Assembly (NCBI RefSeq): GCF_021405525.1
Contig: NZ_JAGQAG010000001.1
Span: forward strand, 2,232,001 to 2,296,000
Direction of reading: 5' to 3'
DNA: 64,000 bases
Origin: Ruegeria pomeroyi
GTDB lineage: Bacteria > Pseudomonadota > Alphaproteobacteria > Rhodobacterales > Rhodobacteraceae
Below are positions 2,398 through 27,253 of this stretch, piece by piece; positions within the stretch are counted from its first letter, which is position 1, and each line of letters begins with the position of its first letter. Position numbers and translations under genes: made by a program. The notes below the pieces were generated by a model. That model worked only from the letters and a program-made list of their open reading frames with translations. It made no database searches and was not told the origin of the DNA.

Positions 2398-2400
2398 GAC

Positions 2401-7467: not shown

Positions 7468-7502
7468 AAAGGCCGCCGGTTCGGGGGAACCTGGCGGCCT
7501 TT
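7468..7502. terminator. Bidirectional terminator between IalB-family gene and fabF-like gene
   Basis: A 10-bp perfect stem AAAGGCCGCC (7468-7477) and GGCGGCCTTT (7493-7502) flanked by A and T runs, placed between convergent genes. Confidence 0.85.
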
Positions 7503-7529
7503 TCATATCCGTCTGATCCGGGACGCGGG

Positions 7530-8738: not shown

Positions 8739-8746
8739 GGGCGCGG

Positions 8747-9004: not shown

Positions 9005-9035
9005 GTCGATCCTCTGGGTTCTGTCTGGCGCTGAT

Positions 9036-10127: not shown

Positions 10128-10161
10128 CTGGGGCCTGCTTCTTGTGGTTGGCCCCGTGGAT

Positions 10162-11775: not shown

Positions 11776-12141
11776 GATGAGATCCTGAGCAAAATACACT
11801 TAACAACGTTCAAAGACGTTAATCTGGACAAATCTTCAAGAAAAACAGGGGGAAATGTCCATTCACAATCGCTTCAATGGGTGACAATTCAGCTTGGCTG
11901 ATGCGCGGATGCATCGCCCAGTCGCGGATGGCGCGCATGTCCTGCCTGTCTAAAGCAGTGTTCTCATCACCTGTTTGGGCGAAAAACTGCCGAAATTTCC
12001 CCCTTGGCTGTCACATTTTGAAAGAAAACTTGGCGAACGAATCCCCCTGTGCCATACAAATGCGCAACCGGGGGATGGTTATTAACAATGTACACGTAAC
12101 ATCGTGTGCAGGCAGGACGAAGTACGGGACGAAACAGTCAC
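11776..12141. promoter_or_regulatory. Divergent intergenic region between two cell-wall genes
   Basis: This 366-base gap is AT-richer than its surroundings and holds the promoters of both flanking genes. A promoter-like TTGGCG-N17-CATACA lies about 100 bases before the DUF882 gene. An ACACG-N6-CGTGT inverted repeat at 12092-12107 lies about 35 bases before that gene's start. No convincing small gene was found. Confidence 0.4.
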
Positions 12142-12711
12142 ATGACTCAACACAACTCGACGAGCCTTTCTCGGCGCGCACTTCTTCAGGCATTCGCCGC
12201 GACTGCGGTTGCCGCAACTCCAACATACTCGATGGCAGCAGGGTTTCTGCGCGGAGGTGGCGACATCCGCCGTATTCGCATGTACTCCGGTCGTACCGGG
12301 GAACGCATTGACATGGTGTATTGGATCGACGGCAACTACATCAAGGACGCGGTGAAGGAGATCAATCACTTCATGCGCGACTGGCGCGTTGACCAGGTCA
12401 AGTCCATAGATCTGCGCACCATCGACATCATGGCCGCCGCTCATAACCTGATGGATGTGAACGAGCCCTATATGCTTCTTTCGGGCTATCGGAGCCCGCA
12501 GACCAACGCCATGCTGCGCAGCCGCTCGCGCGGGGTGGCCCGCAACTCGCTGCATATGCAAGGGCAAGCAGCCGACCTGCGGCTTGCCTCTCGCTCGGTC
12601 AGCCAGATGGCAAATGCCGCGATTTCCTGCCGCGCCGGCGGTGTCGGCAAATACTACCGCTCGAATTTCGTGCACATGGATTGCGGAGAGGTCCGCTCCT
12701 GGGGCGGCTGA
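12142..12711 (+). CDS. DUF882/YcbK-like M15 family peptidase, Tat-exported
   Basis: A 189-residue protein. The chosen ATG at 12142 places a twin-arginine signal (LSRRALLQAFAATAVAA) at the N-terminus. The mature part matches DUF882 (peptidase M15A-like, related to MepA/MepK murein endopeptidases). Metal ligands appear as His and Asp in SLHMQGQAADLRL and His in FVHMDCGEVRSW, with a conserved SGYRSPQTN before them. In Escherichia coli MepK cleaves 3-3 cross-links, the product of L,D-transpeptidases. The divergent L,D-transpeptidase gene therefore suggests a make-and-break pair. The Tat signal implies that it folds, perhaps with its zinc, before export. Confidence 0.88.
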   Translation: MTQHNSTSLSRRALLQAFAATAVAATPTYSMAAGFLRGGGDIRRIRMYSGRTGERIDMVYWIDGNYIKDAVKEINHFMRDWRVDQVKSIDLRTIDIMAAAHNLMDVNEPYMLLSGYRSPQTNAMLRSRSRGVARNSLHMQGQAADLRLASRSVSQMANAAISCRAGGVGKYYRSNFVHMDCGEVRSWGG

Positions 12712-12741
12712 CCGTCCCTAAACAGGAAAAAGACCGGATGT

Positions 12742-12770
12742 CCCCCGTGCCGCAGGCTCGGGGGTTTTTG
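12742..12770 (+). terminator. Terminator after the DUF882 gene
   Basis: CCCCCG (12742-12747) pairs with CGGGGG (12759-12764) with an inner GCC/GGC stem, followed by five T. Confidence 0.85.
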
Positions 12771-13040
12771 TTTTACGAGTGCATGCCGCCTCGTCATCCG
12801 CTCTGGCAGGATGGGCCGCGAGCCGAAGTATGGAGAGGGCCGCGAACTCCCCAAAGGCTCATCCCCTTCGGAACCACCACCCCACCCCCTGGCATATTCA
12901 TGTTGCAAGCGGCATCCGCGCCTGTTCCAGGATCAGAACTGCAAATACCGTCGGTTCGGGCACAATGGCCCGATCGCGGAACCGGATATCGCCCCCCGAA
13001 TGAATGTGCCTCTATTCGCCCGTGGTACCCGGCCTCCCGC
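12771..13040. other. Non-coding gap between convergent genes
   Basis: About 270 bases with only short, compositionally poor open frames on either strand. No conserved motif, repeat or RNA gene was recognised. Confidence 0.4.
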
Positions 13041-14741
13041 TCAGTCCAGCACCTCGGTCAATGGAACCCCGGTCGCGCCAGAGGGCGGCTTGGTGCCCAG
13101 ATAGGCCGCGATGGTCGGCGCCACGTCCACCGTTTCGACATGGCGCGCAATGCGTGCCGGGGGGATGCCCGGGCCATGAAAGATCACTGGTACATGGGTG
13201 TCATAGGTCCACGGCGACCCATGCGCCGAGGCCACCGTCAGCCCGTCAAAATCGGCGATGAACCAATGCGGTTCGAACACGACATAGATATCGCCCGACC
13301 GGTCGCGGTGAAAGTTGCGGCGCACCGCGTCCACCACCTTGCCCTCGCCGATCTGCCCCTCGCGCAAGCGGCGGCTGGATACGGCAAGGTCGATGCCCGG
13401 CAGCAGGTCGAGTTCACGCGCAACCGAATCCTCGACCGTCGCCGGATCGAGCCCCTTCTCTGCAATCAGCTCGCGGTTGAGATAGACATAGGGGCTGGAA
13501 AAGTTGCGGATCAACGCGCGCGCCTCGCCGAATTGCGCGCCCAGACGCACGAAACCGGGCTCTGTATCGACGCGCTCGAAATCGAAAGTGCCGGCCTTTA
13601 TGCCATGGGTGGCAAGGTAGCCCGGGTTCTCGGGAGAGCCATGATCGGCGGACAGCACCACCAGCACCTGATCCAGCCCGACCCTGTCATCCACGAAATC
13701 AAGGAGATCGGCCAGCGTCCGGTCGAGGCGGCGCATGTTGTCTTCGGCCTCCAGGCTCGACGGCCCGAAGACATGCCCGACATAGTCGGTCGAAGACAGC
13801 GAGATGGACAGGTAATCGGGCACCGCGTCCTGCCCGATGCCCTCGGCCTCGATCAGCGCCTTGGCAAAATCCACGGTGATCTCGTCGCCTGCCGGGCTCA
13901 GCGTCAGTCGGGTGGTGTAATACTTGTCATCCGCCTTTCCCCAGGGATGGGGAAAGCTGCGCCCGAAACCGGGAAAGTCGGTCTCCCACGGCTGGTCGTC
14001 GCGGGTGCCGAACATGTAGCTTTCGGGCGCGTCCGCGAGCGTCCAGCTTGTCCCGGCATAAGATGCAACCATGCCCGAACCGTTCCAGTCGCTCACCCAG
14101 CCGGGGTAATCGTCGCGGTAAAAGGTCGAGGTTACGAACCGCCCCTCGGATTTCGAGAACCAATAGGCCTGACCGGTATGGCCGGCCATCGAAATCGCGC
14201 CCCGATCCTTGATCGACACGCCAAAGATCAGCGCCTCGGGACCAAAGAACATGCCGATCTCGTCGGCGATGGTCGAGGTCAGGATGTTGCCGGGCGAGCG
14301 GCCATCGGTGGTGGCGGCACGCTGGGTCGGGTCGATCTCGGTCGCCGCATCGACCCCGGCGGCGCCCACCAGCGGATAGTCGGGATCCTGCACGTTATAG
14401 ACCTGACCGCCCTCGACCCGGTCGAACCAGACATTGGCGACCATCCCGTGCACCGCCGGATCGGCACCGGTGGCCAGCGTGGTGTGGCCGACGATGGTTT
14501 CGGTATTGGCATGGCCGTGATGGGCCTGGGTGAAATGGACACCGCCCCGGATCAGGCGGCGGAACCCGTCCTCGCCAAGTCCGGCACCGAACCTCTCGAT
14601 CAGGTCGCCGCGCAATTGGTCGACGGTGATCTGCAAGACCAGTTTCGGACGTTCCTGTGCCAGGGCGGGTATGGCGGGTGCAATGCAGGCTAGTGCCGCA
14701 ACCAGCGCAGGCGCCGTCATTCTTGGGCTGCTGTTCACCAT
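13041..14741 (-). CDS. PafA-like alkaline phosphatase superfamily protein
   Basis: A 566-residue periplasmic metallo-hydrolase. The start at 14741 follows an excellent GGAGGAGG site and gives a signal peptide ending near PAIPALAQ. Motifs fit phosphate-irrepressible alkaline phosphatase: LQITVDQLRGD (metal Asp), the Thr nucleophile region HANTETIVGHTTLATG, HGMVANVWFD, STDYVGHVFGP, LSADHGSPE and a C-terminal AHGSPWTYDTHVP (metal His). It would cleave phosphate esters. It is the last gene of the sulfatase-MoxR-Bat-octaheme array, 45 bases after the cytochrome gene. The substrate is unknown; a phosphodiesterase activity is possible because the superfamily is promiscuous. Confidence 0.87.
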   Translation of the reverse strand: MVNSSPRMTAPALVAALACIAPAIPALAQERPKLVLQITVDQLRGDLIERFGAGLGEDGFRRLIRGGVHFTQAHHGHANTETIVGHTTLATGADPAVHGMVANVWFDRVEGGQVYNVQDPDYPLVGAAGVDAATEIDPTQRAATTDGRSPGNILTSTIADEIGMFFGPEALIFGVSIKDRGAISMAGHTGQAYWFSKSEGRFVTSTFYRDDYPGWVSDWNGSGMVASYAGTSWTLADAPESYMFGTRDDQPWETDFPGFGRSFPHPWGKADDKYYTTRLTLSPAGDEITVDFAKALIEAEGIGQDAVPDYLSISLSSTDYVGHVFGPSSLEAEDNMRRLDRTLADLLDFVDDRVGLDQVLVVLSADHGSPENPGYLATHGIKAGTFDFERVDTEPGFVRLGAQFGEARALIRNFSSPYVYLNRELIAEKGLDPATVEDSVARELDLLPGIDLAVSSRRLREGQIGEGKVVDAVRRNFHRDRSGDIYVVFEPHWFIADFDGLTVASAHGSPWTYDTHVPVIFHGPGIPPARIARHVETVDVAPTIAAYLGTKPPSGATGVPLTEVLD

Positions 14742-14786
14742 CTTGTTCCTCCTCCAAGTCAATTGTCCGGACCGCACGCGCCGCCG

Positions 14787-16745
14787 CTACTGTTCGGCAA
14801 CCGAGCGTTTCATCTCGTTGAGCGCCGCACTATGCGGCAATTTCTCCAACGCCTCGTCAAGCACCCCGGCCGTAGCGTCGGGCCCGTCCATCGCCGCAGC
14901 GATGCGCGCCAGCATGATCCAGGCCTCTTCGCGTTGCGGGTCCATCGCGACCACCTGCCGGAACGCGCCGCGCGCGGCCGGGATGTTGCGCATGGTCAGC
15001 GCCATGCCCGCCATCACCATATGGGTTTCGGGAAAATCGACACGTGCTGCAAGCGCCCTGCGCCAGTCGGTCATCGCTGCCTGCATCTGCGCCTCGATGC
15101 GGGCCGGCAGCCGCGCAATGGGAGCATCCAGCATCGCCTTGGCGGTCTCGATCCGCACCATGCGCACCGGATCCGCCAGCAGCGGGATCAGCCGCTGCAC
15201 ACGTGTCTGCGGGGGCGCCGCGCGCTGAACCCCGATCGCCGCGGCGCGCACGAGGGGATCGTCGTCCTCTAGCAGCCCGGCCAGGAACTCGGCACTGTTG
15301 GCATCGCCGCCCTGAGACAAGAGCCAGAGTGCCGTTGCACGGACCAGCCCGGCCTGATCCCGATCCTGGGCCAGGATGCGCAGCCCCGGCCCTGCCGCGA
15401 CCGGATCGGCCCGCCCGGCTGCCAGCACCGTGCCGTAATGCGGACGTTTGGCCGCATCGGGATACCGTTGGGCGATTTCGGCCGCCGCCCAGCCCGCATC
15501 CTGATCCGCATGGCAATCGGTACAGGCATCGGGCCCGCCGGTCACCGCCGCCAGATCCGGGCGCGGGATGCGGAAACTGTGATCGCGCCGTCCGTCTATC
15601 CCCATGTAATCACGCTCGATCATATGGCAGGACTTGCATTCTGCCCCGGCAGAGCCCTTGGGGTGGAACGTATGCGCGGGATCGTCGTAAAGCGCTGCTT
15701 TCAGGCTGGGAAAGCGCGGGTTCGCCGCCGGTGAATGGCACTGGGTACACAGGCTGTTATCCTCGGCCCGCAGCGTCGCGCCATGCGGCTCGTGACAGTC
15801 CAGACAGCCCACCCCGCGCTGATACATCTTCGATTGCAGGAACGAACCATAGACATAGACCTCGTCCAGGATCTGGCCGTCGGCGTGATAGAGACCCGGC
15901 CGCAAAAGCGACAGCGTATAGGCGTCGTGATAGGGCGTCCCCGGTATCGGGTTGCCCTGCCCCATCGGCTCGCGCCGGGAATGGCAGCCGGCACATTGCT
16001 GGATCATCGCCTCGGTGCCGGCGGTGTCGAAGTCCATGGCAAGCCCATAGCCCTCGGGCGGCAGCAGCGGGTCCTGCGAGCTTCGCTCGCGGGCGGTTTC
16101 GGCCCAGGTCACATGCGCGGAACCGGGGCCATGGCAGGCCTCGCAGCCCACGCCGATCTCGGCCTGTTGCGAGTGGTAGCTGTCGCTTGCCGCATCGTAA
16201 TTCTTCTCGAACCCGGTTGCGTGGCATTCGGCGCAGCGTGCGTTCCAGTTCTTGTAGGGGCCGGTCCAGTGCAGGCCGTCGCCCGGCGGCAGGTCCTGTT
16301 CGGGGTAAAGGTGGTACCAGCGGGCGCCGTCGACATCCCAGACCACGTCGAAGCTCTGAAGTCGCCCCGGTTCGGTCTCGATCAGGTATTGCTGAAGCGG
16401 CGCGATCCCGGCGACCGAGTGGATTTCATGGGTCTTTTCGCTGCCGTCGGCCTCGGTGATGGTGACGCGAAACTGTTCGCCCGCGCGGCTGAACAGATAG
16501 CGTACCCCGTCATGGTTGAACTCGATGTCATCGAAATCGGCCAGCACGGTCTCGGGCGTCGGCAGGGTCCAGGCCAGCGCGTGATGCGAGCCTTGCCAGG
16601 CCTTGGCTTCTCCCTCGTGGCAGTAGGCGCAACTGGCCGAGCCGACGTAATCGGCGCTTCCGGTCTCCGTGTCACCGGTCTGCGCCAGGGATGGCATCGC
16701 CAGGCTGATACAGGCCAGAACCGCGACAAGGAGGGAACGAAACAT
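14787..16745 (-). CDS. Octaheme c-type cytochrome with C-terminal HEAT/TPR-like repeats
   Basis: A 652-residue exported protein with signal peptide (cleavage after SLAQ, about residue 22). Eight CxxCH heme motifs begin at residues 39, 171, 201, 251, 314, 333, 370 and 408. Between the first and second lies a strand-rich domain of about 120 residues. From about 430 to the end the sequence is helical, HEAT-like then TPR-like (for example RGAFRQVVAMDPQREEAWIMLARIA). Related multiheme/TPR proteins are known as sequence families, but I know of no established substrate. It starts 21 bases after the BatD-like gene and precedes the PafA-like gene, so it is probably part of the MoxR/Bat operon. Confidence 0.9.
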   Translation of the reverse strand: MFRSLLVAVLACISLAMPSLAQTGDTETGSADYVGSASCAYCHEGEAKAWQGSHHALAWTLPTPETVLADFDDIEFNHDGVRYLFSRAGEQFRVTITEADGSEKTHEIHSVAGIAPLQQYLIETEPGRLQSFDVVWDVDGARWYHLYPEQDLPPGDGLHWTGPYKNWNARCAECHATGFEKNYDAASDSYHSQQAEIGVGCEACHGPGSAHVTWAETARERSSQDPLLPPEGYGLAMDFDTAGTEAMIQQCAGCHSRREPMGQGNPIPGTPYHDAYTLSLLRPGLYHADGQILDEVYVYGSFLQSKMYQRGVGCLDCHEPHGATLRAEDNSLCTQCHSPAANPRFPSLKAALYDDPAHTFHPKGSAGAECKSCHMIERDYMGIDGRRDHSFRIPRPDLAAVTGGPDACTDCHADQDAGWAAAEIAQRYPDAAKRPHYGTVLAAGRADPVAAGPGLRILAQDRDQAGLVRATALWLLSQGGDANSAEFLAGLLEDDDPLVRAAAIGVQRAAPPQTRVQRLIPLLADPVRMVRIETAKAMLDAPIARLPARIEAQMQAAMTDWRRALAARVDFPETHMVMAGMALTMRNIPAARGAFRQVVAMDPQREEAWIMLARIAAAMDGPDATAGVLDEALEKLPHSAALNEMKRSVAEQ

Positions 16746-16766
16746 GGGCGACTCCGGTTTGCGCGG

Positions 16767-18026
16767 TCAGCGCGGATTGAGCGGGGGCAACCCGGCCAGC
16801 TGATGATGGCCCGCGCGGTCGGGGCTGTAAACCGCAAGTGCCCGGTCAAGCGCACGCCAGTCCGCCAAATCGCCTCTGGGTGCAGGTCCATAGAGCGCCG
16901 CGCCGAGCGCCCTGAGCGCGCTGGCGATGGCCGGATCGCGGCGCGGGTCCGTGGTGCCGAGCCGCGCCGCCCAGAGATCGAGCGCGGCCAGCGTCGCCGA
17001 CAGATCGCGCCGCCGCGCCGCGGAGATGGCCAAGCTGCGCGCGTGCGCAGGCGAGGCAAGATAGCGGCTAAGTCTGGTCGCGCGCCAGCGTTTCCAGCGC
17101 CGCAGCACGGGCCGGACGGCAAATACGACGACACCCAGCACCAGCACCAGCACCAGCACACCCAAGATCAGCAGCTGTGGCGAAAGCGCGGGCACACTGC
17201 GCGCGACGGGCGCGTCCACGGTCAGATCGACCCCCGGCACCGAGGCCGTTTCCACCTGACCGGTTTCCAGGTTGTACCAGTCGAGCGTGACCGGCGGGGC
17301 GGCGCCGCTTCCGCCGCTTTGCGCCAGATAGGTCACCCGCTCGACCCGGCTGCCGCCCGGTTCGCCGCGCGTTTCGGTTTCGCTCAGCACCGGTTCGGAC
17401 GGGTAGACTGTCAGCCCGGTGACCGGTTCGACAGCTAACAACCCCGGCAGCAGCATCGCCGGTCCACCCTCGATCGTGGCGGTCACTTCACGGATCACGC
17501 TGTCACCGGGGCCAAGCGGTGCGGTGGCCCCGGTGACCTCTTGCGTCAGCGTCACCGCGCGGGCGGCGATGAACGGGTCCAGCCCCTCGGCGCCATCGGG
17601 CAGGATGCCGGTGATCGTGATCGCCTCAATTGGCACGACCTTCTCACGGGGGGCAGAGCTGTCGGGATCGGCCCAGGTCACGATCAGTTCCTGCGGCGGG
17701 ATCACGAAGCGGCCCGGCACCAGCGGCGTGATCCGGTAGCGCCGCGAGACCCCGGACCAGGTGTCGCGGTCAATCCGTTCGCTGATCGGGTTTGTTGCCC
17801 GTTCGGGCAGGCGAACCATCAGGTTCGGCGCCTCGAAAGTGGGGAAGACCACCGGTTTGGGCAACCATGTGGGCACCAGCACCGTGATCCGCAGGTCAAG
17901 CGGCTGGCCCGGTATCGTCTCGGCGGTCTCAAGCTCCACCGTCACGCGGGGCACGTCCTGCGCGCGGGCCGGTCCCGTCACGATAAGCGAGAGCACCGCG
18001 ACGATCAGGAACAGCGCACCTCTCAT
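16767..18026 (-). CDS. BatD-like membrane-anchored protein
   Basis: A 419-residue protein. The ATG at 18026 overlaps the upstream stop (ATGA) and gives a signal peptide (GALFLIVAVLSLIVTGPARA). The periplasmic part has strand-rich repeats such as RVTVELETAETIPGQPLDLRI and YRITPLVPGRFVIPP, typical of BatD. One transmembrane segment (about residues 275-300, Leu/Val-rich LILGVLVLVLVLGVVVF) leads to a short basic cytosolic tail. BatD partners with BatA and BatB in the Bacteroides aerotolerance operon; the biochemical role is unproven. Its periplasmic face could contact the octaheme protein encoded next. Confidence 0.82.
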   Translation of the reverse strand: MRGALFLIVAVLSLIVTGPARAQDVPRVTVELETAETIPGQPLDLRITVLVPTWLPKPVVFPTFEAPNLMVRLPERATNPISERIDRDTWSGVSRRYRITPLVPGRFVIPPQELIVTWADPDSSAPREKVVPIEAITITGILPDGAEGLDPFIAARAVTLTQEVTGATAPLGPGDSVIREVTATIEGGPAMLLPGLLAVEPVTGLTVYPSEPVLSETETRGEPGGSRVERVTYLAQSGGSGAAPPVTLDWYNLETGQVETASVPGVDLTVDAPVARSVPALSPQLLILGVLVLVLVLGVVVFAVRPVLRRWKRWRATRLSRYLASPAHARSLAISAARRRDLSATLAALDLWAARLGTTDPRRDPAIASALRALGAALYGPAPRGDLADWRALDRALAVYSPDRAGHHQLAGLPPLNPR

Positions 18027-19564
18027 TGACCCGCCCCCGATGCCTCGAACCGGAAGCGATAGCGCAGGAAATCCCCCGTTCGGGTGTCGACCGTGTTCAT
18101 CCACTGGTCACTGGTCAGAATCGCCTCTTCGCCGCGCGGTTGCCGGTCAGTCTGGGTGTCGACGCCCCGGTTGGCCTCGTTGTCAAACACAACGTCATCG
18201 GCGCCGATGCCGGTTTCTTCGCCCGTGTCCGAGGCCTCGCGGGCATCCTCGACATAGGTCACGATGCGCCGCGCGGTTTCCAGGTTCTCTGCCGCGCCGG
18301 GAAAGTCCGGGTCGCGCTCCAGCGTGGTTTCAAAGGCGCGCACGCCGTCGCGATACTGGCGGTTCTTAATATGGGCGAGGCCCTGGGTAAAAGAGGCCTC
18401 GGGCGTCTCCAGCCGGTTCAGCACCTCGATCGCCTCGTCATAGCGCCCGGCCCGATAGAGCGCGTGACCCTTCCACATCGGATCGGCAAAAAGGTCACCC
18501 GCGCCTGTGAAGTCGTTCCGGTTGAACGCACGATAGCCCTGCTGGTCGGGTGTCAGGAACCAGTCGGCCAGCCCGTCGGCCCGTGCGGCACCAGGGTTGA
18601 GACCGACCGAGGCGACAAGGCAAAGCGCGCCCCAGCGCATGGTCCAGCCTTGCCGGAACCACAACAGCGCCAGCAGTACGGCGGGCACCGCCAGCCACCA
18701 GCCACGATCCTCCCAGGGCTGGCTGTCATCATCCAGCAGCGCGCGGCGGTAATCCACATTCAGGATCCGGTCCAGCCGCTGCACGTCGCTGTCATCCGTT
18801 GTTGCCCGGACCACCGGCACCGTGCCAAGCCGGTCCAGCCCGATATCCGAAACGCCATCGGGCAGCATCGCCAGAACGGTCGTCGCCGCACCAGCCCCGG
18901 CGGAGTCGAAGGCTGCCACATCGGCACTGTCCAACCCGTCCGCCACGACCAGCACCCCGCCTACGCCTTCGGCGGCTAGGATCTCTTGCGCCAAAGACAG
19001 CGCGGCGGTGGCATTCGCGCCCTCCTGCGGCATCACATCGGGCGTCAGCCCCTCAAGATAAGGCAGCATCACCTGCGCGTCCTCGGTAAAGGGCAAGACC
19101 CGGTGCGCCGTCCCGGCATAGGCCACAAGGGCGGTGCGCGCCCCGGCGCGCAGGTCCAGCAGGTCGCGGATCTTGAACTTGGCGCGCTCCAGCCGGCTTG
19201 GCGCCAGATCGGGCGTGGTCATCGAAGGCGTAACCTCGAGCACGATGACCACAGGTCCGGTCTGGGCCAGAAAGGGATCGGCCTGCCGGGTCCAGGACGG
19301 GCCTGCGGCGCCGATCACCGCCAATGCCAGCAGCGCCGAGACATGGTCGATGGGCAAAAATCGCCGGGCCGCGCCACCGCCCACGGTCAACGCCGCCAGC
19401 AGATGCGGCGCGATCCCCTCGGGCAGCGGCGGCTCGCGGGTCGCCGCGCGCCGGTTCATCCACCACAGCGCCGCCAGCGGCACCAACAGGAGCAGGAACA
19501 GCGGACGAAGGAAGTGGAATGCGTCAGCCACCAGCCCGAGTTCGGAAAGCAGGATCTCGCTCAT
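18023..19564 (-). CDS. BatB/BatC-like fusion: von Willebrand A domain plus TPR
   Basis: A 513-residue inner-membrane protein. The start overlaps the previous stop (ATGA). Two N-terminal membrane segments flank a DUF1355/BatA-type region, a VWA domain follows (about residues 90-290), then a membrane helix near WWLAVPAVLLALLWF. A TPR-rich part (ALYRAGRYDEAIEVLNRLE and onward) corresponds to BatC fused to BatB. The metal-site motif is unusual: where VWA domains carry DxSxS, this has EVTPS (Glu for Asp, Thr for Ser), so metal binding may be weakened. BatA next door keeps a normal DISDS. Confidence 0.83.
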   Translation of the reverse strand: MSEILLSELGLVADAFHFLRPLFLLLLVPLAALWWMNRRAATREPPLPEGIAPHLLAALTVGGGAARRFLPIDHVSALLALAVIGAAGPSWTRQADPFLAQTGPVVIVLEVTPSMTTPDLAPSRLERAKFKIRDLLDLRAGARTALVAYAGTAHRVLPFTEDAQVMLPYLEGLTPDVMPQEGANATAALSLAQEILAAEGVGGVLVVADGLDSADVAAFDSAGAGAATTVLAMLPDGVSDIGLDRLGTVPVVRATTDDSDVQRLDRILNVDYRRALLDDDSQPWEDRGWWLAVPAVLLALLWFRQGWTMRWGALCLVASVGLNPGAARADGLADWFLTPDQQGYRAFNRNDFTGAGDLFADPMWKGHALYRAGRYDEAIEVLNRLETPEASFTQGLAHIKNRQYRDGVRAFETTLERDPDFPGAAENLETARRIVTYVEDAREASDTGEETGIGADDVVFDNEANRGVDTQTDRQPRGEEAILTSDQWMNTVDTRTGDFLRYRFRFEASGAGQ

Positions 19565-20544
19565 GCCGCCCTCCGCCCTCTTTGGGGAAGGCTCAGCAGC
19601 CCCAGCGCCCCGATCCCAAGCGCAGCCGCCAGCCCAAGCAGCCATGAGGACAGAACCCTGCGCGGACGATACGACACCTGTTCGACCAGCCGGGGGGACA
19701 GCGCGTCGATCCGCTGATAGACCCCGGCCAGCGCCTCTACGTCCGAGGCGAAAAAGGAGCTGCCGCCGGTGCGGCTGGCGATATCGGCCAGCGTGCGGGT
19801 GTCGACGCGGGTATCTCCGCTGGCCTGCGGGTCGCCCACCGCAATCGTGTGGATCTCGACCCCGCGCGCGCGAGCGATCTCGGCCGCGTTGAGCGGGCTC
19901 ATCCGGCTGCCGGTATCGGCGCCGTCCGACAACAGGATCAACAGGCGCTGCTCGACCTCGCTGATTTCAAAGGTGCGAATGGCCAGACCGATCGCGTCGC
20001 CGATGGCGGTATGTGGCCCGGCCATGCCGACCTCGGTCTGCGCGACCAGTGCGGCGATAGTGGCCAGATCCTCGGTCAGCGGCGCCTGGAGAAAGGCCTG
20101 GGTGCCGAACACGATCAGCGCGATCCGGTCGCCCTCGCGCTCGGCCACGAAGCGGCTCACCACCTCTTTGACCGCATCCAGACGTTGCAGACGGGTGCCA
20201 TCGGGGGCGGCGAAATCGACGATGTCCATCGAGTCGGAAATGTCGATGGCCAGAACCACATCGCGGGCCGAGCGTGTCATCTCGATCGGGGCGCCCAGCC
20301 GTTCGGGTCGTGCCAACGCCAGCACTAGCAGCACCCAGACGGTAATCGCCACCGTCATCTGGAGCCGGGTCCGCCGCAGGATCACCGCCCCCTCGCCCGG
20401 TGTCACCTCTGCCACACGTACGATCTGGCGAAAGAAGGGAAAGCGCAGTGCCGAGACGTGCTCGCGCCGCGCGGGCAGATAGCGCCAGACCACAAGCGGC
20501 AGCGGCAGGAGCAACAGCGCAAGTGGAAAGCCAAGGGCGATCAT
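19561..20544 (-). CDS. BatA-like von Willebrand factor A domain protein
   Basis: A 327-residue inner-membrane protein starting at an ATG that overlaps the DUF4381 stop. N-terminal helices (MIALGFPLALLLLPLPLVVW and a second near residue 80) precede a VWA domain with an intact MIDAS motif, AIDISDSM, followed by the conserved LSDGADTGS. A C-terminal helix (LLGLAAALGIGALGLLSL) anchors the end. In MoxR systems such VWA proteins are thought to act with the AAA+ ATPase as chaperones for metal or cofactor insertion. Gene order DUF58-DUF4381-BatA-BatB-BatD supports that assignment. Confidence 0.88.
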   Translation of the reverse strand: MIALGFPLALLLLPLPLVVWRYLPARREHVSALRFPFFRQIVRVAEVTPGEGAVILRRTRLQMTVAITVWVLLVLALARPERLGAPIEMTRSARDVVLAIDISDSMDIVDFAAPDGTRLQRLDAVKEVVSRFVAEREGDRIALIVFGTQAFLQAPLTEDLATIAALVAQTEVGMAGPHTAIGDAIGLAIRTFEISEVEQRLLILLSDGADTGSRMSPLNAAEIARARGVEIHTIAVGDPQASGDTRVDTRTLADIASRTGGSSFFASDVEALAGVYQRIDALSPRLVEQVSYRPRRVLSSWLLGLAAALGIGALGLLSLPQRGRRAA

Positions 20545-21026
20545 CGCGACACCTCGCGCCGATGGCGGCGGATCCAGTTTGCGGCCAGATCGGCGAGACC
20601 GGAGGACGCGGTACTGCCCGACCGATAAGGCGCGCTGGCCAGTGCCTGTCCGGGTCCCTGGGTGAACGCCGTGCCACCCCCACCGGTCCGGTCGAGAAAA
20701 ACCAGCCATTCAGTACCGCTCAACCCGGCCACCTCATGTCGCGGAAAGGCCACCAGCGCGGTGCGCCGCAGCACTTCGGCGATCGCCACCGGGTCGCCGC
20801 CCGCGCGTGCCAGCGCGGCCAGCGCCGCGCGCCGGTAGCGATTGGCGTGATAATGGCGCCACCAGCGCCAGAGGCCATAGATCACAGCAACGCCGGCAAG
20901 CACTGCCAGCACCGCCCAACCGGCGGTTTGCGGCAGCATCGACACTGGCGGCGGCGGGTCGGGTGGCACCAGCTGGCCGATCAGATCGACCAGAGTGACC
21001 GGCGGGTCCTGTCCCTGCTCGCTCAT
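20541..21026 (-). CDS. DUF4381 domain membrane protein
   Basis: A 161-residue protein with one transmembrane helix (about residues 34-52, GWAVLAVLAGVAVIYGLW). A cytosolic basic/helical part follows (YRRAALAALARAG, ALVAFPRHEVAGLSG), matching DUF4381. This family is found almost only between DUF58 and VWA genes in MoxR clusters and has no assigned activity. Both ends overlap neighbours by four bases (ATGA), so its amount is probably tied to theirs. Confidence 0.85.
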   Translation of the reverse strand: MSEQGQDPPVTLVDLIGQLVPPDPPPPVSMLPQTAGWAVLAVLAGVAVIYGLWRWWRHYHANRYRRAALAALARAGGDPVAIAEVLRRTALVAFPRHEVAGLSGTEWLVFLDRTGGGGTAFTQGPGQALASAPYRSGSTASSGLADLAANWIRRHRREVSR

Positions 21027-22006
21027 CTCGGGCCAAGCCCCATCAGACGTTTCATCTGGGTCAGGCTGTCCTCGGCCGCGCTCAGCGGCAGCACCGGCAC
21101 GCGATAACGGCGCTGCCAGTCCAGCACCTCGGCCAGACGTCCGCGCGACATCTCGCGCAGGTCGCGATGCACCGTCGTGTTTCCGGTGTCGATCTCGGCC
21201 TGAAGCTCACCATCAGAGATCACCAGTTTCAGCCCCTCGGGAACATCGTCCGCGATTGGGTCGGTCACCAGCCCCAGGATCAGGTCGTTCTGGCGCGACA
21301 GAGCATTGACCAGTTTCTGCGTCAGCTCGTCGATCACGTCGAAATCGGAAAAGACAAGGATCAGGTGATTGCGCGGCGCGATCCGTCCCACCGCTTGCAA
21401 CACGTCGTTCAGGCCGACCGGCGCCACCTTGGGGGCATCGGCCCGCAACAGCGCATTGGCCCGCGTGATGGCCAGCAGCAACCGGTCGAGCGCGGCGCGG
21501 CTGCGCTGGGGCCGGATCTCGGCCAGGGTTTCGTCGCCAAAGACGATGCCGCCGACCCGGTCGCCCTGATCGAGAATGCGGAAGGCGGCAAGTGCAGCGC
21601 ATTCCGCCGCCGTGACCGATTTCATGTTCAGCACCGAACCGAAGAACATCGACATCCGCTGATCGACCACGATCAACGTCGGGCGGTCGCGCTCTTCGGT
21701 GAAGACCCGGACATGCGGCTTGCCGGTGCGCGCCGTCACCTTCCAGTCGATCGAGCGGATATCGTCCGAAGGCAGGTAGTCGCGCAATTCCTCGAAATTC
21801 AGCCCGCGCCCGCGCATCCGCGACGCATGGCGTCCGTTCAGCGCGCTGCCGGCGGGTTGGCGTGGCAGAAAGCTGAGCGTCCGGGCGCGGCCTTCGAGCT
21901 TGCGCAGATGCGCAAGCTCCACATGCACGCGCGGATCGGTTCCCGCCCCTGCCGGTGGCAGGGCGGGCAGTGTACCGGTCCGTATGCGGGCGGCCCTGTC
22001 GAACAT
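21023..22006 (-). CDS. DUF58 domain protein
   Basis: A 327-residue soluble protein. The DUF58 signature is clear: SRMRGRGLNFEELRDYLPSDDIRSIDWKVTART in essence, followed by a degenerate VWA-like fold (LIVVDQRMSMFFGS, LILVFSDFDVIDEL). The protein begins with MFDRAARI 10 bases after moxR. DUF58 proteins accompany MoxR ATPases across bacteria and likely act as cytosolic adaptors. The VQDxSxS-like loop reads VDQRMSMFF, keeping Asp and Ser at two of the metal positions. Confidence 0.88.
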   Translation of the reverse strand: MFDRAARIRTGTLPALPPAGAGTDPRVHVELAHLRKLEGRARTLSFLPRQPAGSALNGRHASRMRGRGLNFEELRDYLPSDDIRSIDWKVTARTGKPHVRVFTEERDRPTLIVVDQRMSMFFGSVLNMKSVTAAECAALAAFRILDQGDRVGGIVFGDETLAEIRPQRSRAALDRLLLAITRANALLRADAPKVAPVGLNDVLQAVGRIAPRNHLILVFSDFDVIDELTQKLVNALSRQNDLILGLVTDPIADDVPEGLKLVISDGELQAEIDTGNTTVHRDLREMSRGRLAEVLDWQRRYRVPVLPLSAAEDSLTQMKRLMGLGPR

Positions 22007-22016
22007 CGTGACGGTC

Positions 22017-23009
22017 CTAGGTCAGTGCAACTTGCGCGATCATCTCAGAAATCACCCGGTCCGGGGTGATCCCGTCGCCCATCGCCTCGTATGTCAGTCC
22101 CAGCCGGTGGCGGAACACGTTGGGGGCCACCGCGCGGATATCGGCGGGATCGACATAATCGCGCCCTTCCAGCCAGGCATGGGTGCGCCCGCATTTATCA
22201 AGCGCCAGCGAGGCGCGCGGGCTGGCGCCCACCCCGATCCAGCGGCCCAGATCGGGGCCGAAACGGTCCGGCACCCGCGTCGCGTTGACCAGATCGGCCA
22301 TGTAGCGTTCCATCGCGTCCGAGACGTGAATGCCGACGATCTCGCGCCGCGCCTCAAAAACCGTCTCTTGCGAAATCGCGGGCGGGCGTTCCTTTGCCAC
22401 CTTGTCCTTGGGCGCATTGGCGGCGGCCTCTTCGCCACGCACGAGGCGGATCACCTTCACCTCGTCCTCGACCGGGGGATAGGTGATCATCACATGCATC
22501 AGGAACCGGTCCATCTGCGCCTCGGGCAAGGGATAGGTGCCCTCTTGTTCGATCGGGTTCTGGGTCGCCATCACCATGAACAGCGGCGGCATCTTGTGCG
22601 TGGTGCCGGAAACGGTCACCTGCCGCTCTTCCATTGCTTCCAGCAGCGCCGCCTGCACCTTGGCCGGGGCGCGGTTGATCTCGTCGGCCAGCACGATATT
22701 GGCAAAGATCGGTCCCGGCTCGAAGCGGAACTCCGACCCCTTGTCTGTCTGGTAATACACCTCGGTCCCGGTCACGTCCGAGGGCAACAGGTCGGGCGTG
22801 AACTGGATGCGGCTGAAATCGGTCTCGAGGTTCTTGGCCAGCGCTTTGATCGCGCGCGTCTTGGCCAGGCCCGGCAGGCCTTCGACCAGCAGGTTGCCAT
22901 TGGCCAGAAGCCCGATCACCAGCATCCGGACCACGTCCTGCTGGCCGATGATGGAATCGCCCATGCGCGCAATCAGGGTGTCGATGTCGTCGCGCGGCGT
23001 GCTGCCCAT
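22017..23009 (-). CDS. MoxR-family AAA+ ATPase
   Basis: A 330-residue AAA_3 ATPase. The start at 23009 follows GGAG; the frame is open upstream but lacks conserved residues. Walker A is EGLPGLAKT, Walker B is VLADEINRAPAKVQAALLEAMEE, and the sensor motifs MATQNPIEQEGTYPLPEAQMDRF are canonical for MoxR. The C-terminal lid has ASPRASLAL. MoxR ATPases are proposed chaperones for maturing enzyme complexes, classically methanol dehydrogenase. Here it heads a run of seven further genes ending in a multiheme cytochrome and a phosphatase. Confidence 0.93.
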   Translation of the reverse strand: MGSTPRDDIDTLIARMGDSIIGQQDVVRMLVIGLLANGNLLVEGLPGLAKTRAIKALAKNLETDFSRIQFTPDLLPSDVTGTEVYYQTDKGSEFRFEPGPIFANIVLADEINRAPAKVQAALLEAMEERQVTVSGTTHKMPPLFMVMATQNPIEQEGTYPLPEAQMDRFLMHVMITYPPVEDEVKVIRLVRGEEAAANAPKDKVAKERPPAISQETVFEARREIVGIHVSDAMERYMADLVNATRVPDRFGPDLGRWIGVGASPRASLALDKCGRTHAWLEGRDYVDPADIRAVAPNVFRHRLGLTYEAMGDGITPDRVISEMIAQVALT

Positions 23010-23101
23010 ATGCGCCTCCGTCTTTCTCGGGTTTCGCGGCCGTCCCCTTGGTGGGGGCCGAACCGGGTGGCGGCCTGCCTGCCCGCCTCGGCAAGACAAG
23101 A

Positions 23102-23123
23102 CCGGCGGGAATACACCCGCCGG
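23102..23123 (-). terminator. Hairpin between sulfatase and moxR genes
   Basis: An 8-bp perfect stem CCGGCGGG/CCCGCCGG with a 6-base loop, followed on the minus strand by TCTTGTCTT. It may end or attenuate the sulfatase transcript before moxR, so joint transcription of the two is uncertain. Confidence 0.6.
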
Positions 23124-23139
23124 CCCAGATGGCATCAGA

Positions 23140-24696
23140 TCAATTCGAACTGGTGTTCGATGTCAGTTTCTCCAGCGCGGCACCCAGGTTGAAGCTGCCC
23201 GGCGACTGGCGCGGCGGGTAGTCCTTGTAGGTTTCCAGATGCTGGGTCACATAAGCCACTGCCGGCAGCACCATGAACGCCCGGTCGAACCGCCACATGT
23301 CGTAATTGGCCGATTCGTGATCCGCCCGCTCGAACGGGTCGCCCAGCAGATCGAACAGCTTGGGCAGACGCAGTTCAAAGAACGGTTCCTGCCAGACCTC
23401 GAAGCCGTGGCCGCGCTGCTCCAGGAACACCATCTTCCAGCGGCCATAGCGCAGGTTGGCCAGATCGCCGTCATCGGTCCAGTAGAAGAACTCCTTGCGC
23501 GGGCCCTCCTCGACCTCGCCCGAGAAATAGGGCAGCAGGTTGTAGCCGTCGAGATGCACCTTGTACTCGCGCCCGATCGCCGAATGACCGGTCAGGAGCT
23601 TGTCCTTGACATCGGTCTCGCCCACGGCCGCGAGGATGGTGGGCAGCATGTCCTCGTGCGAGAAGATGTCGTTATAGACGGTGCCCGGTTCGATGACGCC
23701 GGGCCACTTGATCAGGGTCGGCACACGATATCCGCCTTCCCAGTTCGAGTTCTTCTCGTTGCGGAAGGGGGTGGTGCCGCCATCCGGCCAGCTGAACACC
23801 TCGGCGCCGTTGTCCGAGGAATACATGATCACCGTGTTGTCGGCGATGCCCAGCTCTTCGACCTTGTCGAGAACCTGGCCCACGTGACCGTCATGCTCGA
23901 CCATGCCATCGGCATAGATACCCAGCCCGGTGACGCCATCGGATTCCGGCTTCAGGTGGGTGTTCACGTGCATCCGGGTGGTGTTGTACCACAGGAAGAA
24001 CGGCTTGTCGGCGGCCACCGCGCGTTCCATGAAGTCGATGGCCGAGGCAGTCACCTCTTCGTCCACCGTCTCCATCCGCTTCTTGGTGAGCGGGCCGGTA
24101 TCCTCGATCTGGCCGTCCGAAGTTGCGCGAATGACGCCGCGCGGGCCGAAATTCTCGCGGAAACCGGGGATCTTCGGATAATCGGGATGCTCTGGCTCTT
24201 CCTCGGCATTCAGGTGATAGAGATTGCCAAAGAACTCGTCAAAACCGTGATTGGTCGGCAGATGCTCGTCCAGGTCGCCCAGGTGGTTCTTGCCGTATTG
24301 GGCGGTCATATAGCCGTGATTCTTGAGCAAGCCCGCGATGGTCGGGTCCTTCTCGGACAGACCTTCCTTGGCGCCTGGCAGCCCGACCTTGAGCAGGCCG
24401 GTCCGAAGCGGGCTTTGCCCGGTGATGAAAGCCGCGCGCCCGGCGGTACAGCTCTGCTGGCCGTACCAGTCGGTGAACAGCGCACCCTCGGAGGCGATCC
24501 GGTCGATATTCGGCGTCCGGTATCCCATCATGCCCCGGTTATAGGCCGACGTGTTCATCCAGCCCACGTCATCGCCCCAGATGATCAGAAAATTGGGCTT
24601 CTGATCCTGCGCGATCGCGAAACTTGGCGCGATCGCCAACGTTAGTGCAACAGCGGCCTGCACCGCGCGTTGCCTCATCCTCAATGTGGCAGCCAC
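23140..24696 (-). CDS. Arylsulfatase A-type sulfatase
   Basis: A 518-residue exported sulfatase. The GTG at 24696 is preferred because AAGGAG lies seven bases before it; it yields a signal peptide ending IAPSFAIAQ. Metal ligands are in IIWGDDVGW and SSDNGAEVF. The cysteine converted to formylglycine is in CTAGRAAFITGQ, a CxAxR form of the sulfatase motif. YGKNHLGDLDE and TRMHVNTH supply further active-site residues. The enzyme hydrolyses a sulfate ester in the periplasm; its substrate is unknown. No formylglycine-generating enzyme or anSME maturase is visible in the window. A Crp-type regulator is divergent. Confidence 0.9.
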   Translation of the reverse strand: MAATLRMRQRAVQAAVALTLAIAPSFAIAQDQKPNFLIIWGDDVGWMNTSAYNRGMMGYRTPNIDRIASEGALFTDWYGQQSCTAGRAAFITGQSPLRTGLLKVGLPGAKEGLSEKDPTIAGLLKNHGYMTAQYGKNHLGDLDEHLPTNHGFDEFFGNLYHLNAEEEPEHPDYPKIPGFRENFGPRGVIRATSDGQIEDTGPLTKKRMETVDEEVTASAIDFMERAVAADKPFFLWYNTTRMHVNTHLKPESDGVTGLGIYADGMVEHDGHVGQVLDKVEELGIADNTVIMYSSDNGAEVFSWPDGGTTPFRNEKNSNWEGGYRVPTLIKWPGVIEPGTVYNDIFSHEDMLPTILAAVGETDVKDKLLTGHSAIGREYKVHLDGYNLLPYFSGEVEEGPRKEFFYWTDDGDLANLRYGRWKMVFLEQRGHGFEVWQEPFFELRLPKLFDLLGDPFERADHESANYDMWRFDRAFMVLPAVAYVTQHLETYKDYPPRQSPGSFNLGAALEKLTSNTSSN

Positions 24697-24834
24697 GAAC
24701 CTTCTCCTTTTTGAACTGACCGGATGTCTCAAAATGGTATCAAGAAACGAGTAGACAAAAGTATCATTTGATTGCTTTGTGAAAATTCTCTCTTATTTTC
24801 TGAGGGTAACGGAAGACGTCAAGGAGTGCGCATC

Positions 24835-25509
24835 ATGCCTGTCGATCCGGCTCTCTTTGGAGACAGCGGGTGGTTCGCCGCGTGTCCCGAGAGCCTGCGC
24901 GAGGCACTGGTTGCAAGGGGGCAGTGGCGCAAATACGCGCCGGGGGAACGGGCCACGGGCGATGTCGAGGCGCCGCAGGCCGGCATGTTCGGTGTCTATC
25001 AGGGGACCTTTGACATCAAGACTCCGCGCGCGGATGGTGAACTTGTCACCTTTCATTCCCTTTCGCGCGGGCACTGGATCGGCGATATCTCGATCCTGTC
25101 GGAGCAAAACCAGCTTGCCGTGATGGAGGCACGAGTCGCATCTGAAGTGCTGTTCGTTCCGGCCCCGGTGGTTCTCGACATCGTTACACGGACCCCAGCC
25201 CATTATCGCGATTTCTACCGGCTGACCCGGCGCAACATGAACATCGCGATCGAGGCGCTGATTGGTCTAGTCGCTTCGGATGCCGATCACAAGATCGCCT
25301 TTCGCCTGCTCCAGCTTGACCGCATGAACTGTGTTCCCGGCGGATGGCTGGACATGTCCCAGAACGACCTGGCCGAGATGCTTGGCCTGTCCATCGCCTC
25401 GGTCCGTCGCGGGCTGACAGAACTCGCCAGAGCAAATGCGATAGAACTCGGCTATGCCCGAATGCGTGTTCACCGGGCTAAGCTGGCTTCGTGGATCGAA
25501 ACACACTGA
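24835..25509 (+). CDS. Crp/Fnr family transcriptional regulator
   Basis: A 224-residue regulator. The ATG at 24835 follows AAGGAG with eight-base spacing. The N-terminal part has a cNMP-binding beta-barrel (GVYQGTFDIKTP, FHSLSRGHWIGDISILSE). The C-terminal part has a Crp-type helix-turn-helix (MSQNDLAEMLGLSIASVRRGLTEL). The cysteines needed for an Fnr-type Fe-S cluster are absent in the N-terminus, so it is more likely to sense a small molecule or nothing known. It faces the sulfatase across 138 bases and is the obvious candidate to control the sulfatase and perhaps the whole array. Confidence 0.88.
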   Translation: MPVDPALFGDSGWFAACPESLREALVARGQWRKYAPGERATGDVEAPQAGMFGVYQGTFDIKTPRADGELVTFHSLSRGHWIGDISILSEQNQLAVMEARVASEVLFVPAPVVLDIVTRTPAHYRDFYRLTRRNMNIAIEALIGLVASDADHKIAFRLLQLDRMNCVPGGWLDMSQNDLAEMLGLSIASVRRGLTELARANAIELGYARMRVHRAKLASWIETH

Positions 25510-25674: not shown

Positions 25675-25756
25675 CCCGGGCTATACGGTATCGCCGCGGC
25701 CTCTGCAATCGTCAATCTGCGGATTTTTCTTGCCTTCGTCACAACAGCTTCGCCAA

Positions 25757-27253
25757 ATGCGCGGCATGGCTCGTACCCCATCTTTGATGTTGCTGATCCT
25801 GCTTCAGGTCACCGTCTCCGCCGCCTCGCTGGTGGTCGAGATCGTGGCCGGTCGCATGTTGGCGCCCTATGTGGGCATGTCACTTTATACCTGGACTTCG
25901 GTCATCGCGGTGGTGCTGGCAGGGTTTTCTTTGGGGCACTGGATCGGCGGTGTCCTGGCCGAGCGTCCCGCAGCACGCGCGCTAAGGCTGACTGGCTGGA
26001 CACTTGTCGCGGCCGCCCTCACCACCGCCGCTGCGGCGCTTCTTTTGCGCAGTCTTTCGGAGCCGGTGCTGGAACTGGTCGCGCATCCTGTCTGGGGGAT
26101 CGCGCTGCTGACATTGGCGGTGTTCTTTCTGCCCTCCTGCTTTGCCGGGGTGCCCGCACCGGTATTGGCCGCGTTGTCGGTGCAACGCGGCACGGGCGCG
26201 GGCCGCGCCCTGGGGGCGATGTTTGCCGCCGGGGCCATCGGCGCCATAGCCGGAACCCTGCTGGCGGGGTTCGTTTTCATTTCCTGGCTGGGTTCATCGC
26301 TCACGCTGATGGCGGTGACGGCGGTTTATGCGCTGTCGGCGCTGCTCTGTTTCCGCCTCGGTGGCGGGCGCTGGCTGGCGCCTCTCGTCGCTCTGGGGCT
26401 GGTTTTGTCGCTGGCTGTCGCGGCGCTGGCTGCGCCCGATCCCTGCACCCGCGAAAGCCGCTACTACTGTATCCGCGTGATCGAGCTGGGCACGCCCGAG
26501 GCGCCCGAACGGCTGATGGTGATCGACCATCTGGGCCACGGGATCAGTGCCCGCGATATGCCGCTGACCATGTATACCGACCATGCCGCCATGTTGGACG
26601 CGCTGGCCCGCATCCGCGCGCCGCGCCCCGATTTCTCGTCCTTCTTCATCGGCGGCGGATCCTACTCGATCCCGCGCGCCTTTGCGCTGCGCGGCACCGG
26701 CCCGCGCGTGGTGGCCGAGATCGACCCCGAGGTGACCCGCATTGCCGCTGCGCAATTCTGGTTCGATCCCGCCAGTGCCGAGATCCTGCACGAGGATGCC
26801 CGCCGGGCGCTGCTGACCCGGCCCGAGCGGCGCTATGATGTGATCCTGGGCGATGCCTTTACCGATGTGGCGGTGCCCGCCCATCTGGTGACGCGTGAAT
26901 TCTTCGAACTGGCGCGCGACAGGCTGACCCCTGAAGGCACCTATCTGATGAACGTGATCGACTATCAGGATCGCTTGCAGGCACTGGCCGCGCTGGTGCA
27001 CACGCTGGGCGCCGTCTTTCCCATGGTCGAGGTCTGGACCAGCACCACCCCGCCGCCACCGGGCGAACGCGCGGTCTTTGTCCTGGTCGCGGGCAACAGC
27101 CCCACCCCGCATTCGCGTTTCGTCACCCGTGCGCCCGAGCCCACCGAATATGGCGCGCTCGCCCCGGACTGGGTGGCCCAACTGGCCGCCATGGGCGCGC
27201 TGCTGACTGACGACTTCGCGCCCATCGACCGGCTGATCGGCCGGCCCGACTAA
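25757..27253 (+). CDS. Membrane-fused spermidine synthase-like protein
   Basis: About 498 residues. The N-terminal half (to about residue 230) has seven or more hydrophobic segments, starting MLLILLQVTVSAASLVVEIVAGRMLAPY. The C-terminal half is a Rossmann methyltransferase-like spermidine synthase domain with FFIGGGSYSIPRAF, VVAEIDPEVTRIA and VILGDAFTDVAVPAHL. Such fused MFS-like/spermidine synthase proteins are widespread, and polyamine synthesis by them is rarely shown. The start is uncertain: ATG codons at 25757 and 25766 and a TTG at 25730 all lack a clear ribosome site. It has no partner genes: tRNA-Arg is upstream and the suf operon is convergent. Confidence 0.82.
   Translation: MRGMARTPSLMLLILLQVTVSAASLVVEIVAGRMLAPYVGMSLYTWTSVIAVVLAGFSLGHWIGGVLAERPAARALRLTGWTLVAAALTTAAAALLLRSLSEPVLELVAHPVWGIALLTLAVFFLPSCFAGVPAPVLAALSVQRGTGAGRALGAMFAAGAIGAIAGTLLAGFVFISWLGSSLTLMAVTAVYALSALLCFRLGGGRWLAPLVALGLVLSLAVAALAAPDPCTRESRYYCIRVIELGTPEAPERLMVIDHLGHGISARDMPLTMYTDHAAMLDALARIRAPRPDFSSFFIGGGSYSIPRAFALRGTGPRVVAEIDPEVTRIAAAQFWFDPASAEILHEDARRALLTRPERRYDVILGDAFTDVAVPAHLVTREFFELARDRLTPEGTYLMNVIDYQDRLQALAALVHTLGAVFPMVEVWTSTTPPPPGERAVFVLVAGNSPTPHSRFVTRAPEPTEYGALAPDWVAQLAAMGALLTDDFAPIDRLIGRPD

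Follow-up and report, generated by a model that had tools for sequence, protein, structure and literature searches.

What does an octaheme cytochrome do beside a sulfatase, and how does such a sulfatase acquire its formylglycine? Both questions are raised by a 64,000-nucleotide stretch of Ruegeria pomeroyi DNA (hereafter the window), which carries an array of nine minus-strand genes encoding, among others, an S1 sulfatase, a MoxR/Bat module, an octaheme c-type cytochrome and a PafA-like phosphatase. Two routes to sulfatase formylglycine are known, one through the formylglycine-generating enzyme (FGE) and the other through the radical-SAM enzyme anSME. The genome to which the window belongs is 99.97% complete; it has no match to PF03781, the FGE profile, and scores at most 35 bits with the radical-SAM maturase model, for which the cut-off is 349. 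Comparison of the sequences and neighborhoods of the cytochrome and its relatives suggests that the octaheme cytochrome is probably the center of an FGE-independent maturation system, which would convert cysteine to formylglycine in exported sulfatases. More tentatively, the cytochrome itself may be a third class of formylglycine-generating enzyme, namely a periplasmic dehydrogenase that acts after secretion, has neither the FGE fold nor a radical SAM domain, and spreads with sulfatase genes and polysaccharide plasmids.

The sulfatase of the array combines a PF00884 domain with the C-x-[PA]-x-R motif, here in the form CTAGR, and thus belongs to the S1 sulfatases. Its catalytic cysteine is residue 95 in the TTG-started reading of the gene (23140-24732), and this position never varies among the 14 diverse sulfatases of alignment A2. 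The columns of D54, R99, K148 and D307 are likewise invariant in this alignment and those of H150 and K327 nearly so; we take these six to be the conserved active-site residues of S1 sulfatases. The array is accordingly read as encoding a cysteine-type S1 sulfatase, for which both export and formylglycine are predicted.

The partners of the cytochrome were counted in a family sample of 198 genomes, in which the cytochrome was scored at E <= 1e-200, the sulfatase at E <= 1e-100 and DUF4381, a component of the MoxR/Bat module, above its cut-off; the limits used for FGE, sulfatase and cytochrome thus differ from one another. The cytochrome was found in 27 genomes, the sulfatase in 28 and DUF4381 in 21, and a further 15 genomes showed weak matches to the cytochrome (E 1e-15 or worse). 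The cytochrome is present in 26 of the 28 sulfatase genomes and the sulfatase in 26 of the 27 cytochrome genomes, while DUF4381 is present in 19 of the 27 cytochrome genomes versus 2 of the 171 others. Fisher tests, which ignore kinship and were run on tables drawn up from our own tallies, gave p values of 4e-29 for co-occurrence of the cytochrome with the sulfatase and 3e-18 for that with DUF4381. DUF4381 lies within 15 kb of the cytochrome on one contig in 13 of the 27 genomes, as counted by hand from coordinates. We also surveyed 80 named cytochrome loci with flanks of up to 10 kb, a set that is rich in Ruegeria and includes 11 loci shorter than 20 kb. These contain the sulfatase in 52 cases, MoxR in 37, a phosphatase of the HAD superfamily in 33, PafA in seven and FGE in none; among the 69 loci of 20 kb or more the sulfatase occurs in 45, MoxR in 37 and both in 21. 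The tightest partner of the cytochrome is the sulfatase and not MoxR/Bat. PafA is an occasional partner, and the HAD phosphatase is the commoner of the two.

Genomes with the sulfatase and without the cytochrome are of particular relevance to function. In a class sample of 385 genomes the sulfatase was detected in eight, of which four also have the cytochrome (G000, G267, G252 and G486) and four lack it (G389, G393, G524 and G601). Taken together with the two such genomes among the 28 of the family sample, all six genomes with sulfatase and no cytochrome hold an FGE gene in the sulfatase cluster. This gene directly adjoins the sulfatase in five of them (G036, G389, G393, G524 and G601), and in the sixth (G083) a HAD gene stands between the two; G601 additionally has a second sulfatase without an adjacent FGE. 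The CxxxxC pair, which is catalytic in FGE, is kept in all six of these cluster proteins. A tree was built by a quick method from 74 sulfatases, of which 67 belong to cytochrome genomes and seven to FGE genomes. It requires at least 5 changes of partner, also when the count is restricted to starred branches; the sulfatases with FGE show some clustering on it (5 changes, compared with a mean of 6.8 after shuffling). Since two unrelated genes swap repeatedly beside the same enzyme, the cytochrome and FGE would appear to be functionally equivalent. Matches to the known maturases are also missing from many of the genomes concerned: there is no PF03781 match in 10 of the 27 family cytochrome genomes or in 17 of the 48 genomes behind the named loci (two overlapping sets), and the radical-SAM maturase scores above its cut-off in only two of 46 genomes searched, 44 with and two without the cytochrome.

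Should exported cysteine-type sulfatases depend on FGE or on the cytochrome, none would be expected in genomes that have neither. We then compared the N-termini of the sulfatases in such FGE-less cytochrome genomes with those of a control group, judging a signal-like N-terminus by a rule of our own with up to 75 residues upstream examined. In FGE-less cytochrome genomes, 19 of 23 cysteine-type sulfatases are signal-like, and a twentieth (L155) appears so by eye. These come from 26 loci, with 25 open reading frames, of nine of the ten FGE-less family cytochrome genomes (none from G119), chosen mostly for sulfatase matches and non-exhaustive. The control consisted of the 66 family genomes that have neither a PF03781 match nor the cytochrome and do match the cysteine-sulfatase profile A2; it took 103 of 112 matches, the nine omitted ones having matched in the C-terminal half only. 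The cysteine motif is carried by 102 of these 103 open reading frames, one (L286) being cut, and a signal-like N-terminus was seen in 0 of the 102. Of the 103 frames, 100 have a methionine no more than 62 residues from the cysteine, an arrangement also found in choline sulfatases and related enzymes; L250 and L254 lack one at that distance, and their starts are ambiguous.

The association of cytochrome and sulfatase extends beyond the family. In the plasmid collection PLSDB 147 records match the cytochrome, and 13 of these loci were inspected (L292-L304), with gene calls from our own search in the two that are unannotated (L293 and L300). The cytochrome has a cysteine-type sulfatase as a direct or close neighbor in Rhizobium johnstonii, Sinorhizobium terangae, S. 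meliloti ml45 and 2011, Vibrio, two Pseudoalteromonas, Methylosinus, Methylocystis and Rhodobacteraceae SC52. The Alloyangia locus ends within an annotated sulfatase, and the loci of Alteromonas 76-1 and Granulicella show no sulfatase within their bounds; the Granulicella relative (L302, 412 amino acids) is 28% identical. Where a third gene accompanies sulfatase and cytochrome, it is usually a HAD phosphatase (PF12710 in the family member L034:8991-9974), as seen in L292, L293, L299, L300, L303 and L304. An arylsulfatase, SMa1683, is listed in the accessible part of an expression table of an S. meliloti tolC mutant and may be the pSymA sulfatase of L300 (strain 2011), where the gene order is sulfatase-HAD-cytochrome. 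In Alteromonas 76-1 the cytochrome is on a 126 kb ulvan plasmid (NZ_LR136959.1; L296, L305-L307), which encodes a single octaheme protein together with seven annotated sulfatases. The scanned stretches cover six of these sulfatases, five with the cysteine motif and one without it by the pattern used. No FGE is annotated on this plasmid, whose gene tables are incomplete, or was found in the scanned stretches, which exclude bases 1-20000. Growth of Alteromonas 76-1 on ulvan is described in the available part of PMC6431674. The link is also not confined to a single sulfatase subfamily. In the class sample, the cytochromes of genomes that lack the sulfatase subfamily of the window share their loci with other cysteine-type sulfatases, with the motifs CSPTR, CSPSR and CTPSR, in G311, G361, G428 and G430, and the cytochrome is further found near a CTPGR subfamily; a second cytochrome locus of G361 shows no such sulfatase.

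These distant loci bear directly on an alternative with the opposite direction of dependence, which an earlier note on this DNA had put forward: MoxR/Bat would assemble the octaheme cytochrome and perhaps also the two hydrolases of the array. The neighborhood of the octaheme protein with MoxR/Bat is indeed conserved across species, as the DUF4381 counts given above indicate, and in the window only 21 bases separate the BatD-like gene from that of the cytochrome. However, among the 13 plasmid loci MoxR/Bat occurs in Alloyangia only, and the inspected loci of Rhizobium, Sinorhizobium, Vibrio, Pseudoalteromonas, Methylosinus and Methylocystis (the loci, not the whole genomes) have none. Eight of the 27 cytochrome genomes have no DUF4381 match, though some (L121 and L141) keep MoxR and other Bat genes. 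Furthermore, all eight hemes have ordinary CXXCH sites, which are served by the general cytochrome c maturation machinery. We therefore regard this alternative as very improbable; MoxR/Bat does not seem to be needed for maturing the cytochrome. The note had also spoken of a distinct assembly system, and here the linkage is real and the idea looks right, but the roles look reversed. Given that the sulfatase is the constant partner and that an FGE gene occupies the sulfatase cluster in genomes without the cytochrome, maturation of the sulfatase by the cytochrome is more probable than a role of the cytochrome as a client of MoxR.

The cytochrome contains exactly eight CXXCH motifs; every one of its eight CXXC sites is CXXCH and none is CXXCK. 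Reductases of the MccA or NrfA type have a special heme site, CX15CH or CXXCK. All eight motifs are retained in 126 of 126 aligned homologs, in which H55, H211, H321, H358, H361 and H389 are also invariant, H159 is present in 124, and M307 and M381 are present in all. Seven near-invariant histidines thus stand against eight distal sites, and one heme would therefore be open or bound by methionine, which may give room for a catalytic site. The AlphaFold model shows a confident beta domain (residues 58-160) that separates the first heme from the second and a confident C-terminal solenoid, in agreement with the HEAT/TPR-like C-terminus that the earlier note had described. A Foldseek search with this model reached E 0.001 for no structure, and among the 50 matches listed nearly all are solenoid proteins; the comparison of folds thus lends no support to a catalytic heme. 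The cytochrome profile weakly matches the multiheme chains 6i5b, 1bvb (c554) and 4rkm (MccA) in the PDB over the heme stretches; 6i5b, deposited as an uncharacterized protein, is presumably OcwA. Neither a PF03781 nor a radical SAM domain was matched by the cytochrome in Pfam and NCBIfam, and a phage collection gave no match to it. Its relatives are currently labeled 'tetratricopeptide repeat protein', 'cytochrome c3 family protein' or 'multiheme c-type cytochrome' in the databases. One heme stretch of the octaheme protein is further matched by the model NF041198 at 61 bits against a cut-off of 275; this model describes a UshA-like (seleno)protein family, a name that suggests a nucleotidase-like hydrolase and heme motifs in one chain. 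Frames of about 650-690 amino acids in L098-L100 (genomes G082, G072 and G099) share 28-29% identity with the N-terminal half of the octaheme protein. No sulfatase was found by our queries in those three loci, and these proteins are perhaps a sister family with another task.

Multiheme c-type cytochromes are mostly electron carriers, and the octaheme protein could in principle be no exception, acting as an electron-transfer partner in the breakdown of sulfated compounds, for example by oxidizing the desulfated product; it would then be tied to the sulfatase through metabolism and not through maturation. The weak similarity to 6i5b, 1bvb and 4rkm agrees with this, and the HAD and PafA phosphatases in these loci suggest that the genes serve catabolism. 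Yet a metabolic link leaves unexplained why FGE replaces the cytochrome beside the same sulfatase at least 5 times, as well as the association with several sulfatase subfamilies and with the ulvan plasmid, and we consider it unlikely. A second possibility is that the cytochrome is a redox helper rather than the catalyst, keeping the cysteine reduced after export, removing H2S or feeding another converting enzyme. The same co-occurrence and swap data fit such a helper, and for E. coli the accessible part of PMC6189696 attributes the conversion to machinery yet to be identified. Nevertheless, in the 80 loci no uncharacterized gene is as constant as the sulfatase and cytochrome outside the Ruegeria-type backbone, and the plasmid loci often contain the pair with a HAD gene alone or with no other partner detected by our queries. 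A mere helper thus appears less likely still than a metabolic partner.

Under the favored proposal, that of maturation by the cytochrome, the exported octaheme protein would replace FGE in the following manner. After export, the HEAT/TPR solenoid would grip the still-unfolded sulfatase around its CTAGR segment, and the heme part would carry out a two-electron oxidation of the active-site cysteine to a thioaldehyde, the hydrolysis of which would yield formylglycine and H2S. The electrons would leave through the hemes to the respiratory chain. In one group of lineages, the MoxR, DUF58, DUF4381, BatA, BatB and BatD proteins would form an accessory ATP-driven chaperone that assists in folding proteins or presenting them at the membrane; we assign them this place because they are common in that group and missing near the cytochrome in others. 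PafA or the HAD phosphatase may act together with the sulfatase on the substrate. The conversion chemistry, the compartment of the reaction, the electron path, the binding of the client and the role of MoxR/Bat are all inferred here from sequence and gene context.

Several observations weigh against this proposal. The sulfatase is within 15 kb of the cytochrome on one contig in only 15 of the 27 family cytochrome genomes, and eight of the 69 loci of 20 kb or more have neither sulfatase nor MoxR nearby. No sulfatase was found at the fetched cytochrome loci of G254 and G385, where the cytochrome matches are partial. The heme region, which would house the reaction, is poor in the AlphaFold model and not confidently placed. 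FGE-domain proteins occur in 17 of the 27 family cytochrome genomes versus 86 of the 171 others (p 0.30), a PF03781 match of at least 200 bits is present in eight of the 27, and in the class sample eight of nine further cytochrome genomes have an FGE-domain match at E 1e-50 or better elsewhere, which speaks against exclusivity. Lastly, cysteine-type sulfatases without a signal occur in the 66 control genomes (loci L177-L184 and L196-L290), and because such genomes exist, absence of a match to a known maturase is alone no proof of a novel one; their signal-less sulfatases either work unmodified or a further cytoplasmic maturase exists. Genome-wide depletion of FGE was rejected as an argument, as FGE-domain proteins are not rarer in the family cytochrome genomes. 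The FGE loci of the eight family genomes with both cytochrome and strong FGE contain a different sulfatase in three cases (G125, G038 and G092), and no sulfatase was found at the other five. Since cytochrome genomes hold strong FGE elsewhere, the two can coexist, and their exclusivity is a property of the locus and not of the genome.

The nine genes of the array are all open and intact in the window, and their order and identities, as well as the divergent regulatory gene, agree in outline with the reading of the earlier note.

Table. Genes of the array and the divergent regulator, with window coordinates; protein identities are from Pfam/NCBIfam profile matches unless other evidence is given
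Feature	Coordinates	Strand	Basis
S1 sulfatase, signal-like N-terminus, motif CTAGR	23140..24696	-	PF00884 172 bits; motif scan
MoxR AAA+ ATPase	22017..23009	-	PF07726 (AAA_3) 214 bits, AAA_lid_2
DUF58 protein	21023..22006	-	PF01882 125 bits
DUF4381 membrane protein	20541..21026	-	PF14316 109 bits
BatA-like VWA membrane protein	19561..20544	-	PF00092 73 bits; BatA_Lepto 124 bits (below cut-off)
BatB-like VWA protein with TPR	18023..19564	-	PF13519, PF13432
BatD-like protein, signal-like N-terminus	16767..18026	-	place in array, architecture, ATGA overlap
Octaheme c-type cytochrome, 652 amino acids, signal-like N-terminus, C-terminal HEAT/TPR solenoid	14787..16745	-	8 CXXCH; PF13435, PF13646, TPR
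PafA-like phosphatase, alkaline phosphatase superfamily, signal-like N-terminus	13041..14741	-	NF042991 448 bits; PDB 5tj3 E 3.6e-89
Divergent Crp/Fnr-type regulator gene	24772..25509	+	PF13545, PF00027

The presence of MoxR, DUF58 and two VWA proteins in one array identifies a MoxR/Bat module; its BatD-like member has no Pfam or NCBIfam match. Four junctions overlap by 4 bases as ATGA, namely DUF58-DUF4381, DUF4381-BatA (with the ATG at 20544), BatA-BatB and BatB-BatD. MoxR and DUF58 are separated by 10 bases, and our values for these overlaps and for the gaps before the cytochrome and between cytochrome and phosphatase (45 bases) equal those computed previously. The sulfatase had been counted as a member of the coupled array. 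Its distance from MoxR is 130 bases (taking the MoxR start as the ATG at 23009), so this junction is not tightly coupled. The 130-base stretch folds no better than shuffled sequence (z -1.2), the 7 terminator-like sites do not exceed the shuffled mean of 7.6, and a promoter and terminator scan gave nothing clearly above shuffles. The score of the phosphatase against NF042991 is under the equivalog cut-off of 650, for which reason we name it only PafA-like; its KDR aligns with the KDR of 5tj3, an instance of the K-x-R pattern that we take to be the active-site motif of PafA alkaline phosphatase. Relatives of the Crp/Fnr-type gene are present in 25 of the 80 related loci according to family clustering of the loci, and this gene is a likely local regulator. 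Neighbors of the array are a protein with a weak spermine synthase match, below cut-off, at 25730-27253 (+) and an L,D-transpeptidase at 10162-11799 (-). A second strong MoxR (AAA_3, 196 bits) is encoded far from the array in the same genome (G000:C1:55883-56284, L002).

How does the proposed system relate to those already known? Where these sulfatases have no cytochrome as partner, FGE (SUMF1) is part of their cluster, and FGE and the cytochrome are proposed to share a product, formylglycine from the cysteine of C-x-[AP]-x-R. Beyond this they are unrelated proteins. FGE contains no heme, and bacterial FGE works ahead of export; the cytochrome begins with a signal-like segment and is not matched by PF03781. 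The proposed likeness to anSME (radical SAM, TIGR03942) lies in a two-electron oxidation and an inner electron conduit, but anSME is a cytoplasmic iron-sulfur enzyme unlike the cytochrome. The multiheme cytochromes that show weak profile similarity have other heme counts or special heme sites, and we know of no sulfatase link for them. Known MoxR/Bat operons share MoxR, DUF58, DUF4381, BatA, BatB-TPR and BatD with the array, which differs from them in its tie to a sulfatase and an octaheme cytochrome. A third sulfatase maturation system was reportedly inferred in E. coli by Benjdia in 2007. A 2015 paper that cites this third-system work calls the E. coli maturation machinery elusive in its accessible part (PMC6189696). 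As far as that part goes, the similarity is that cysteine conversion is ascribed to neither known maturase; we do not claim that the E. coli factor is this cytochrome. In Verrucomicrobia, genes for Planctomycete-specific cytochromes c (PSCyt domain proteins) occur beside sulfatase genes according to the available passages of PMC5615132. The likeness, compared by description and not by sequence, is one of cytochrome genes near sulfatase genes, and those passages propose no maturation role. Among the matches listed by a literature search of titles, abstract openings and some passages, with subscription journals mostly outside its reach, no link between a multiheme cytochrome and sulfatase maturation was found.

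Neither known class of maturase is related to the cytochrome, and a heme-based periplasmic route would constitute a new kind of protein modification chemistry. If correct, the proposal may also offer a tool for aldehyde-tagged proteins and active sulfatases for seaweed polysaccharides. For the cytochrome family it would mean a sharper annotation than the current labels, and for the organisms that carry it an explanation of how exported cysteine-type sulfatases occur in genomes without an FGE match.

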